Positions 36,503 to 40,530 of a DNA stretch of 64,000 nucleotides are shown in pieces. Origin of the DNA: Natronorubrum texcoconense (GTDB lineage: Archaea; Halobacteriota; Halobacteria; Halobacteriales; Natrialbaceae); contig NZ_FNFE01000002.1 of NCBI RefSeq assembly GCF_900100335.1, positions 434,001 through 498,000 of the forward strand, given 5' to 3'. The position numbers were made by a program, and so were the translations under genes. How positions within the stretch are numbered: the stretch's first letter is position 1; each line of letters opens with the position of its first letter. The notes under the pieces were generated by a model. It was not told the origin of the DNA. It saw only the letters and a list, made by a program, of their open reading frames with translations, and did no database searches.

Positions 36503-36874
36503 TCATCGAAGCGCGCGGACCAGTTCGTCCGCAGTCGCGGTCTCGTCGGCTTGCCGTTCCAGACGCCAGCGATCCCAGAGCACGTCACTGAGGATGTGGA
36601 CGTAGAGCACGGTGCCGGTCAGAATCGCGAGAGGGACACTCGAGACCGCGAGTAGCGGGACGACGACGCCGACGATGAGGAGGTGGCTCGCCAGCCGCGA
36701 GAGGAGTCCGACGTCACCCGCGTCGAAGATCCGCTGTTGGTCGGCGACGGCCGCAGTGGGGTTCGCGAGACAGAACCTCACGGCGGTCCAACGGCCCGTC
36801 TTGAGCCGAGCGATGAGGAAGTGATCGAGGTCGACGAGCACGCCCACCGCGGTGCCGTAGCCGACGAGAACCAC
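36503..36874 (-). CDS. membrane protein, probable N-terminal frameshift
   Basis: The 123-residue frame from the GTG at 36874 contains a conserved-looking VGVLVDLDHFLIARLKTGRW block and two membrane helices (about 66-82 and 85-97). The same frame stays open upstream to a stop at 36980-36982 and encodes a further hydrophobic, protein-like segment (SKHHALVSFAVASVLAYALS) but has no ATG, GTG or TTG there. A GTG in another frame at 36983 would join it after removal of one base near 36970. A real frameshift, a sequencing error or a shorter protein are all possible. The family is unrecognised. Confidence 0.55.
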   Translation of the reverse strand: MVLVGYGTAVGVLVDLDHFLIARLKTGRWTAVRFCLANPTAAVADQQRIFDAGDVGLLSRLASHLLIVGVVVPLLAVSSVPLAILTGTVLYVHILSDVLWDRWRLERQADETATADELVRALR

Positions 36875-37085
36875 TGTTGGAACCGAATAGCCGAGGATCG
36901 CGACCGGTGACAGCGCGTAGGCGAGGACGCTGGCGACAGCGAACGAGACGAGCGCGTGATGTTTCGAGTAGATCGATCGTCACCCGGCCGATCCGACGGG
37001 GGCGGGCCACTAAATCGTCCCGCCGGGTTTCGGAGATTGGTTGGGTCGAGTCAAAAACACGGCAAAAGCCGTACCGATCGACGAC

Positions 37086-37457
37086 TCAGCCGGCGAACCC
37101 GGAGAGCAGCCACTCGTCGTCGTCGTCGTCGCCGATGCTCGGTGCGCTGACGAGGACGAAGGCGCTCTCCTCGTCGCCGTTGCGGATCTGTCGCGTCGAT
37201 GCCGGCGGGATCCACAGCGCGTCGCCGGTCTCCATCTCGACCGGTTCGTCGTCGATGACGACGGTCGCCGCCCCCTCGATCAGCACGTAGACCTCCTCGT
37301 GCTCGTTGTCCGTGTGATCGTGTGGCTTGCTGTTCCAGCCCGGATCGCAGCGTGCGACCGTCACGCCGACGTGTTCGGTCTCGAGCGGATCGCTCAAGAA
37401 GTGCATCGCACTCGAGACCTGATCGACGTCCTCGTAGTTTACCTTCCGATAGCTCAT
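37086..37457 (-). CDS. cupin domain protein
   Basis: The 123-residue single-domain cupin has the two metal motifs: PHDHTDNEHEEVYVLIEG (motif 1, three His and one Glu) and GDALWIPPASTRQIRNG (motif 2, without the usual His). Such small cupins bind a divalent metal and may be isomerases, dioxygenases or binding proteins. The acidic stretch IGDDDDDEW lies near the C-terminus. It is about 100 bp beyond the stop of the Cys-rich peptide gene on the same strand, so the two might be co-transcribed. Confidence 0.88.
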   Translation of the reverse strand: MSYRKVNYEDVDQVSSAMHFLSDPLETEHVGVTVARCDPGWNSKPHDHTDNEHEEVYVLIEGAATVVIDDEPVEMETGDALWIPPASTRQIRNGDEESAFVLVSAPSIGDDDDDEWLLSGFAG

Positions 37458-37555: not shown

Positions 37556-37636
37556 CTAACAGTCGTCGCAACTGCAGTCGTCGCCACACGTACAGACCGG
37601 CTCACAGGCGCAGTCGGGTTCACAACAGGCGGACAT
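37556..37636 (-). CDS. 26-residue Cys-rich, metallothionein-like peptide
   Basis: An ATG at 37636 opens 26 codons ending TAG at 37556-37558. Nine residues are cysteine (positions 4, 5, 9, 11, 15, 17, 21, 23 and 26), mostly as C-x-C pairs in an acidic background with no aromatic or hydrophobic core. This is the composition of metallothioneins and predicts a metal-thiolate cluster. Reading further upstream in frame gives a basic non-Cys-rich segment, so the start is set by composition and by the palindrome just before it. No homologue is known to me. Metal sequestration is inference. Confidence 0.6.
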   Translation of the reverse strand: MSACCEPDCACEPVCTCGDDCSCDDC

Positions 37637-37651
37637 TGGTACAGTGTACCA
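37637..37651. promoter_or_regulatory. perfect palindrome before the Cys-rich peptide
   Basis: TGGTAC-AGT-GTACCA is a perfect 6-3-6 inverted repeat directly before the ATG at 37636, flanked by a direct repeat CAATG on each side. In a leaderless promoter it would cover the transcription start, as a repressor operator would. A TATA-like AGTTATG lies about 20 bp further upstream. Confidence 0.6.
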
Positions 37652-37841
37652 TTGGGGAGGGACCGGGCATAACTGTTGTGGGTATTCCGGACGAACCGGA
37701 CTGTGAGCGACCAGTTCGATTCCGTTCCGACCAGCGCGCATCGGCGGCTCCGATCGAGACGGGTGCATCGTGCTATCGCTGTGACCGGAACACGCGAAGA
37801 AGACAACCTTTTTTGAGGGGTAGCCGGAGTTGGGGAAGATA

Positions 37842-39182
37842 ATGGCCTCCGACTCCGGTGATCCGGTCTACTACGTCATTAGTGACCTTCACATCGGCGG
37901 CGACGAACAGCTCGAGGAAGTCGAGTTTCTCGACGAGTTGTACGAGTTTCTCGAGCGACTGGAAGCGACCGACGAGAACGCCGAACTGATCATCAACGGC
38001 GACGCGTTCGGGCTGTGGGAGTTTACGACGGTCGAGGGGATCGAAAAGTTCGACGTGCTCGAAGAGACGTATCCGCAACTCTTCGAGCAGTTGCGTGCGA
38101 CCGGCGAGAACGTTCCGATCACGCTCCTGCCGGGGAATCACGACCACGAACTCGCCGCGTACGACGAGTACGTCGAGCGCCTCGCCGCGTACAACGTGAC
38201 GCTCGTTCAGGAGCAGTCGATCACGCGGTCGGTCGGCGAACAGGCGATTCACTTCGAGCACGGCCACCAGCAGGATCCGAACAATCGAATCGACGACTGG
38301 GGGAATCCCCACTCGACGCCGCTTGGCTACTTCTACAACACGCTCGTCACGAGCCGCGCAGGACAACTTTCGGATCGCGGACGGTACAACTGGCTGAAGG
38401 ACGTACAGGCGGTGACGCCGACCGAACGAATGCCGGTGTGGCTCCTCTCGAAGTACTTCTATCGGGAGATGAACCCGCTGTTGCGGTACTCGTTGGTTCC
38501 GTTCCTGCTACTGTTCAACATCAGTGCGATCATCGCGGTGCTGGCGGGGCTGGATCTCGCGGGGATCTGGTCGATGCCGGTCGATCGGACGGAGACTTTC
38601 CTCGGTCAGTTCGGCACGGCCGGGACGGTGGCCTGGTTCTTCCTCGCCCTCAACGCGACCGTCGCCGGCTTGCTGTTGCTCGTCGGCATCCCGCTGCACT
38701 TTATCCGACGCGACATCAGAAAGACCGTCGACCGGTTCGGGGTGTTCGAGACCGAGATGACCGTCGATCCCGAAACGCCGTACGAGGAGGCCGCCGCCGA
38801 CGTCTTCGCCGAGCAACCGGAGACGACGGTCTTCTGCTACGGCCACACGCACCGACCGACGATCACGGAAATCGACGGCGGAATCCTCGTCAATAGCGGA
38901 ACGTGGCTGAAGCGACTCCACCGCAAAGACGGGATCATCGGGATTCTCCCGCCGGTCTTCCACCCGTCCTACCAGCTTGCTGCCGTCCGTATCACCCCCG
39001 AATCGTCGGGTGTGGCCGTCGAATTCGAAGAGATCACGAAGCCCAGCCCCGCGCCGGACGAACTGACGCGCACTGAGCGGTTTTTCACCGTCGGCCGGGA
39101 GCCTCGCCCCGAACTGCCAGACCGATACGTCGTCGAGAAAGAGACGGCCGCTCCTTCCCGGGAGGAGGAAGCGGCTCCATAA
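37842..39182 (+). CDS. membrane-associated metallophosphoesterase
   Basis: The 446-residue protein is a calcineurin-like phosphoesterase interrupted by two membrane helices (about residues 218-240 and 263-285, IIAVLAGLDLAGIW and ALNATVAGLLLLVGIPLHF). Metal motifs are VISDLHIGG, NGDA, LPGNHDHE and CYGHTHRP, resembling UDP-diacylglucosamine hydrolases (LpxH) in order, although haloarchaea make no lipid A. A membrane lipid or nucleotide pyrophosphate substrate is inference. The start ATG at 37842 follows a purine run and excludes a TTG four codons earlier. Confidence 0.85.
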   Translation: MASDSGDPVYYVISDLHIGGDEQLEEVEFLDELYEFLERLEATDENAELIINGDAFGLWEFTTVEGIEKFDVLEETYPQLFEQLRATGENVPITLLPGNHDHELAAYDEYVERLAAYNVTLVQEQSITRSVGEQAIHFEHGHQQDPNNRIDDWGNPHSTPLGYFYNTLVTSRAGQLSDRGRYNWLKDVQAVTPTERMPVWLLSKYFYREMNPLLRYSLVPFLLLFNISAIIAVLAGLDLAGIWSMPVDRTETFLGQFGTAGTVAWFFLALNATVAGLLLLVGIPLHFIRRDIRKTVDRFGVFETEMTVDPETPYEEAAADVFAEQPETTVFCYGHTHRPTITEIDGGILVNSGTWLKRLHRKDGIIGILPPVFHPSYQLAAVRITPESSGVAVEFEEITKPSPAPDELTRTERFFTVGREPRPELPDRYVVEKETAAPSREEEAAP

Positions 39183-39199: not shown

Positions 39200-39628
39200 C
39201 TAGTTGTCCTGTGAGATCGGATCGAAGCTGTCGACGGGGATCACGGAGTAGTCGACGGTCAGCGCGTCCTTGGTCGCGCGAATCTTTCCGACGAACGTGG
39301 AGATGTCCTCGAGTTCGCCCTCCAGGACGAACAGTTCCATGCAGTAGTGGTCGCCGACGTGGCTGTGGAAGTTCGAGGCCACGAGATCCTCGTGTTCGTG
39401 GCGCAGGTGCATCATGCGCTCTTCGACGCTGGTCGTCTCGTAGTCGAAGAGGACGGTAACGATACCCATCAGCTCTCGCTCTTCGAGACGGGTATCCTCG
39501 AACTCGCCGAGGAGGTTACGGGAGGCCTCTCGGACGACTTCGCTGCGGCCGGTGTAGCCGTGTTCGTCCGCAAACTGGTCGAGTCGCTCGAGGAGTTCGT
39601 CCGGCATGGAGACGCTTACGACTGCCAT
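39200..39628 (-). CDS. nikR: nickel-responsive regulator NikR
   Basis: The 142-residue repressor has an N-terminal ribbon-helix-helix ([17 protein letters not shown]) and a C-terminal ACT-type domain. The nickel ligands H77, H88, H90 and C96 fit the E. coli NikR set (H76, H87, H89, C95) at a constant offset of one. It binds nickel and represses nickel uptake genes. A strong TATA box is 24-32 bp upstream. No nik transporter is in the window, so its targets lie elsewhere. It is convergent with the metallophosphoesterase gene. Confidence 0.93.
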
Positions 39629-39651
39629 ATAATAACTCGCGGGGCAAAATC

Positions 39652-39659
39652 TATTAAGC
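39652..39659 (-). promoter_or_regulatory. TATA box of nikR
   Basis: The minus-strand GCTTAATA lies 24-31 bp before the nikR ATG at 39628, matching a leaderless transcript. Confidence 0.65.
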
Positions 39660-39756
39660 CTTATCATATATCCGGCGCTCGAGCCGGTCGGTCGGTGTCC
39701 GGTCGCGGCGGTTCGCCGGCACACACTGTTTTCCGACTCGACCGTGAGCAGCGTGT

Positions 39757-40530
39757 ATGTACCTTCCAAACCGAACCTGGCCGGAGGTCGGCGAGTACGT
39801 CGCGGACGAATCGCTCGCGGTCGTCCCGCTCGGCTCGACCGAACAGCACGGTCCCCATCTTCCCGAGGGGACCGACCACCTGATCGCCGAGGCGCTCGCC
39901 CGGGAGGCGACCGATCGGACGGGGTATCTCTGCACGCCGCCGGTTCGGATCGGCGTCAGCTCCCACCACCGGCAGTTCCCCGGCACGATGTGGGTCGACG
40001 CGCCCGTCTTCCGGGACTACGTCGAGAGCCTCTCGAGAAACCTCACCGCTCACGGCATCGACCGCATCGTCTACGTTAACGCCCACGGGGGCAACGTCGC
40101 CCACCTCCGAGAGGTCGGCCGGCGGCTCCACGACGACGGGACGGCGTACGCCATCGAGTGGATGTGGGACGAATCGATCCCCGGGCTGATCGAAGAGGTC
40201 TTCGAGACGCCGGGCCCCCACGGCGGTCCCAAGGAGACCGCGATGATCATGCATATCGCGAACGAACTCGTCCGGAAAGAGCGACTCGAGGAGGCCCGCG
40301 ACGGCGGCGCAATCTTCGATTACGACGCCGAGCGAGTCCACGGGGCGACCACCTTCTACGACTGTATCGAGAACAGTCCGAACGGCGTCTTCGGCGACCA
40401 GACGGACGCGACGCCCGAAATCGGCGAGGAGCTGTTCGAGGCCGCGACGGATCAACTCGTCTCGCTGCTCGAGTGGCTCGACGCGCGGCCGGTCGACGAT
40501 CTCATGCCCGAGCCCCAGCTCGAGCCGTAG
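39757..40530 (+). CDS. creatininase family protein, ArfB-like
   Basis: The 257-residue enzyme shows the creatininase metal motif [15 protein letters not shown] (residues 26-40; ligands E29, H31, D40) and NAHGGN. In archaea a member of this family (ArfB) removes the formyl group in riboflavin and coenzyme F420 synthesis; others hydrolyse creatinine or mature peptides (MftE). ArfB is the best guess for a haloarchaeon, but no riboflavin gene is adjacent. The start ATG is 127 bp divergent from nikR. Confidence 0.85.

Follow-up and report, generated by a model that had tools for sequence, protein, structure and literature searches.

The stretch of DNA analysed here (the window, 64,000 nucleotides from Natronorubrum texcoconense) carries a gene for a 26-residue peptide with nine cysteines that is real, conserved and unannotated. 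Judged from its sequence and its conservation, the peptide is very probably a minimal metal-binding protein (metallothionein), a type scarcely recorded from archaea. In eukaryotes and some bacteria, metallothioneins are familiar proteins. As genes of 26 codons fall below the size that gene finders usually report, peptides like this one may go unnoticed across the archaea. What makes the finding interesting is a metallothionein-like archaeal family that lacks annotation and is patchily distributed; the peptide is small enough for direct synthesis and titration, and its presence or absence among sister species provides natural controls for metal tolerance. A targeted genome survey of one haloarchaeon reported no metallothionein (PMC9240420), and a review of haloarchaeal metal resistance, in its available text, treats metallothioneins in general terms only (PMC3600143). 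No archaeal metallothionein family was found in titles, abstracts and passages of the open-access literature.

A conserved nine-cysteine peptide gene with a patchy distribution

Translation and a composition count confirm the tiny, acidic nine-cysteine frame with C-x-C pairs that was noted in the preliminary description of this DNA. The peptide, MSACCEPDCACEPVCTCGDDCSCDDC, which is encoded from an ATG whose first base is window position 37636, has cysteines at residues 4, 5, 9, 11, 15, 17, 21, 23 and 26 (9 of 26 residues), seven Asp/Glu, no Lys or Arg, no His and no aromatic residues. When the 64 kb window is read in all six frames, every 26-codon stretch with more than five cysteines belongs to this peptide; with its conservation, this places the cysteine frame beyond chance. 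A longer start, which would give a 70-residue ORF from 37768, was ruled out because protein conservation starts at the short Met and because two homologous loci (G183 and G204) have a stop two codons 5' of the ATG.

Table 1 Features of the window around the peptide gene.
Feature	Position	Strand	Remark
YdjM-like membrane gene (VDLDHFLIAR)	36503-36949	-	Adjoins the cupin gene across the family
Cupin gene (PF07883)	37086-37457	-	Family-wide neighbour
Nine-Cys metallothionein-like peptide gene	37556-37636, stop included	-	26 aa, MSACCEPDCACEPVCTCGDDCSCDDC
Perfect 6-3-6 inverted repeat TGGTACAGTGTACCA	37637-37651		Possible operator, G000 and G003 only
TTAT, core of TATA-like box	37669-37672	-	-36 to -33 from the ATG
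Metallophosphoesterase gene	37830-39182	+	Between NikR and the peptide
NikR gene (PF08753)	39200-39769	-	Family-wide neighbour of the cupin gene

A protein search identified the peptide in G000, G003 and G009, which are three of ten species in the genus. A profile made from these three congeners alone returned five full-length matches (G183, G197, G190, G210 and G204), every one of them from a single further family of the order, f14, in which they represent five of ten species; G003 lay outside the draw used for the profile search and was already known from the protein search. The eight homologues, from two families, are each 25-26 residues long and share the identical cysteine spacing CC-x3-CxC-x3-CxC-x3-CxC-x2-C; non-cysteine positions such as A3, P7, T16 and D20 are invariant too. 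The preliminary description had made its case depend on a cysteine pattern shared with relatives and on an intact frame in close strains. Comparison shows both: all nine cysteines are invariant in the eight species of both families and the frame is unbroken in the carrier relatives, though 7 of 10 congeners are without the gene.

The changes that separate the homologues fall mostly at silent positions. In three independent species pairs, 21 of ~42 synonymous sites differ compared to 8 of ~189 nonsynonymous sites (pN/pS 0.08, p=3e-12), and third codon positions hold 22 of the 29 changes in the gene. Such a pattern of substitution is direct evidence that selection acts on the protein.

The distribution of the family is patchy. 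Seven congeners and almost all of the other genomes searched lack the peptide, and no further full-length match was found in 125 genomes of its own family, two order draws of ~390 or one phylum draw of 393, sets that overlap one another. Weaker profile matches were partial, either without a comparable cysteine array (L014-L016 and L082-L085) or inside a 361-residue frame (L213). A scan of GTDB species contigs for the cysteine spacing was filled by low-complexity repeats, with no stand-alone small ORF after filtering among the matches listed, and is therefore uninformative on rarer homologues. Viral scans gave no homologue (a single chance frame in L239) and plasmid scans found none.

The cupin and NikR genes close to the peptide had been offered as a clue from context, which does not survive comparison between genomes. 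NikR and cupin genes adjoin in most sampled members of the family and in the seven peptide-less congeners, in which no Cys-rich frame matching the peptide lies between them, and the f14 peptide sits between unrelated genes, for an M29 aminopeptidase and an FkbM methyltransferase, which G176 and G151 possess without the peptide. As the NikR/cupin pair is family-wide and usually without the peptide, it says nothing about the metal, and neither do the other neighbours; the two genes appear functionally unlinked to the peptide. Neither a metal transporter nor a metal sensor neighbours the peptide in both families. G009 has the peptide gene between NikR and the cupin gene. The metallophosphoesterase gene, which intervenes between NikR and peptide in G000 and G003 and is lacking at the G009 locus, has close DNA relatives on Haloarcula, Natronococcus and Haladaptatus plasmids; these observations suggest a recent insertion. 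The YdjM-like membrane gene is the sole neighbour common to the peptide loci of both families, which hints weakly at a shared ancestral locus.

The upstream region: TATA-like box and palindrome

Each of the eight homologues has a TATA-like box 32-38 bases 5' of the ATG, with TTAT at -36, -36 and -38 in the three congeners and at -32 in all five f14 homologues. The box block (-45 to -31) is conserved at 15 of 15 bases between G000 and G003, and the box is also kept in the upstream region of G009. In archaea, transcription usually starts 26-27 bases from the box. With the box at -36, this spacing predicts a start near -7, inside the palindrome that precedes the ATG, and a short leader would be more likely than a strictly leaderless mRNA.

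The perfect 6-3-6 inverted repeat described as abutting the ATG is indeed there (Table 1); the repeat, TGGTACACTGTACCA, fills the 15 bases from -15 to -1. It is intact in two of the eight homologues (G000 and G003), is reduced in G009 to its start-proximal half, GTACCA, the distal half being lost, and is absent from the five f14 loci. Between G000 and G003 the palindrome is identical at 15/15 bases and the adjoining upstream blocks at 9/15 (the block between box block and palindrome) and, farther upstream, 9/15 and 2/15. Because it is fully kept in G003 amid poorly kept blocks, the palindrome may be constrained there. The window contains 54 perfect 6-3-6 inverted repeats, such a repeat abuts 2 of 902 ATGs, and a perfect stem of 6 with a loop of at most 10 occurs in 18% of random 50-base segments. 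The palindrome is only partly beyond chance. An RNA hairpin was also considered and rejected: the palindrome can pair, yet the predicted fold of the region is no more stable than that of shuffled sequences (z -1.0).

A genome-wide search has now been run, as the preliminary description had suggested, and found the exact word once in the 4.64 Mb genome and one-mismatch copies three times, versus one match for a reversed control pattern. One near-copy precedes, by 3 bases, the ATG of a gene for a universal stress protein (Pfam Usp). Another lies 35 bases upstream of a possible ATG for a His-rich, Tat-exported protein, which had no Pfam match and looks cupredoxin-like by eye; these two near-copies are L002:1501-1515 and L004:1501-1515. 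The remaining one lies across the start of a gene, perhaps within coding sequence. We regard the near-copies upstream of genes as a lead, not as evidence. A different element, an imperfect dyad (in G210, TTGTTAACTCACCTGCCGAAAACGGGGTGATGTTACCAAC), lies ~65-105 bases upstream of f14 peptide genes (L077, L078, L079 and L080) and could be either their own operator or the terminator of the aminopeptidase gene.

The preliminary description placed the palindrome where a repressor would block a leaderless transcript. What stands is the location: from -15 to -1 the palindrome spans the start site that the TATA-like box predicts, so that a dimeric, probably metal- or stress-sensing repressor bound there could block the peptide gene. 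The complete retention in G003 between poorly conserved blocks, and the one-mismatch copies before the Usp gene and the gene for the exported His-rich protein, point the same way. A strictly leaderless transcript is the less likely form, and the reading as a whole is weak: G009 has the start-proximal half alone and the five f14 loci have no trace of the repeat, the DNA of the window is rich in inverted repeats of this sort, and the three near-copies compare with one control match. We consider a true operator possible but doubtful; the palindrome would be at best a lineage-specific one.

A probable minimal metallothionein and its alternatives

The best explanation of the nine-cysteine peptide is probably a minimal, single-domain metallothionein. 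The suggestion of a metallothionein-like peptide had been made in the preliminary description and has gained support from the composition, the invariant spacing, the purifying selection and the conserved position of the promoter box. Nine thiolates in CC and CxC pairs, with no His, no aromatics and seven acidic residues, are the build expected of a peptide that holds a metal-thiolate cluster. The peptide also has the general traits of metallothioneins, namely a small size, a Cys-rich CC/CxC array without aromatic residues and cysteine positions that are conserved among homologues.

We infer its expression, metal binding, metal identity, stoichiometry and regulation along the following lines. 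The peptide would have its own short transcription unit, transcribed from the TATA-like box ~32-38 bases before the ATG, and transcription would probably be metal-induced. Being small and acidic, with no signal sequence, it would wrap a single metal-thiolate cluster with its nine thiolates (the CC, three CxC and the terminal Cys), a number appropriate for three Zn(II) or Cd(II) ions or for about six Cu(I). The mammalian beta domain likewise has three divalent ions bound by nine cysteines. Since its C-terminal half is laid out like the Neurospora copper-thionein, the peptide would be expected to buffer or detoxify Cu(I) or Zn/Cd. A stable fold is not expected of a metal-free metallothionein. 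AlphaFold2, moreover, misjudges small haloarchaeal metal sites (PMC11241148).

Other readings of the peptide have to be weighed. A thiol peptide with another role, such as a redox or persulfide buffer, a cysteine store or a Cu/Zn chaperone to a particular partner, would be just as Cys-rich, the sequence cannot separate storage from delivery or redox buffering, and the invariant A3, P7, T16 and D20 are what a partner-binding surface might require. However, a plain thiol store needs no exact nine-cysteine spacing and no common partner gene adjoins the peptide in the two families, so we judge such a role unlikely. Shortness, richness in cysteine and patchy distribution would also fit a small secreted or signalling peptide, for example an antimicrobial or modified peptide with disulfide bonds. 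This is very improbable given that the stop two codons before the ATG in G183 and G204 leaves no room for a leader or signal, that the peptide is strongly acidic with CxC pairs and an odd number of cysteines, and that no maturation or export gene adjoins it in both families. Least credible of all is a chance open frame without a product. The ORF is very short, of an unannotated kind and absent from most relatives, but its mostly synonymous change (p=3e-12) and its conservation in two families with different neighbours contradict this reading.

The minimal metallothionein may be part of a broader proposal, which we put forward tentatively and consider less likely than not: that the peptide represents the founding family of archaeal metallothioneins, a single-cluster 26-mer of an origin independent of those in bacteria and eukaryotes. 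In some species a repressor that senses metal and sits on the start site would control it, and it would be gained and lost between close haloarchaea according to metal exposure.

Comparison with known small cysteine-rich proteins

No Pfam or NCBIfam family matched the peptide at E values up to 1, a test whose power is limited by the short length, and the sole PDB match, the Neurospora copper metallothionein 1t2y, which is the nearest solved structure in cysteine layout, was not significant (E=7.9). Haloarchaea contain CPxCG micro-proteins, very small Cys proteins like the peptide, several of which bind zinc (PMC11241148). These carry two C(P)xCG knuckles that form four-Cys sites, whereas the peptide has only CC, CxC pairs and a final Cys, with no CPxCG motif and no CxxC followed by G. 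The bacterial SmtA/BmtA metallothioneins are likewise prokaryotic, small, Cys-rich and metal-binding (PMC10612145). By contrast with the peptide, which has no His and is about half the size, they possess His ligands and a folded zinc-finger part.

The fungal family 8 copper metallothioneins (Neurospora crassa, 1t2y; Agaricus bisporus) resemble the peptide in their ~26 residues, the size of one cluster. The short fungal copper-thionein has seven cysteines in the arrangement X2-CXC-X5-CXC-X3-CXC-X2-C-X3 (PMC4755600). The last five cysteines of the peptide, CxC-x3-CxC-x2-C, are in the same register but the first four are not: the peptide has nine cysteines rather than seven and an N-terminal CC-x3-CxC in place of CXC-X5-CXC, such that the full family 8 pattern, CXC-X5-CXC-X3-CXC-X2-C, does not occur in it and the C-terminal part alone agrees. 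The peptide is also acidic and archaeal, whereas the fungal proteins are Ser/Gly-rich, and the sequence match between them is not significant. We propose that the peptide works like the fungal copper-thionein but stands outside its family.
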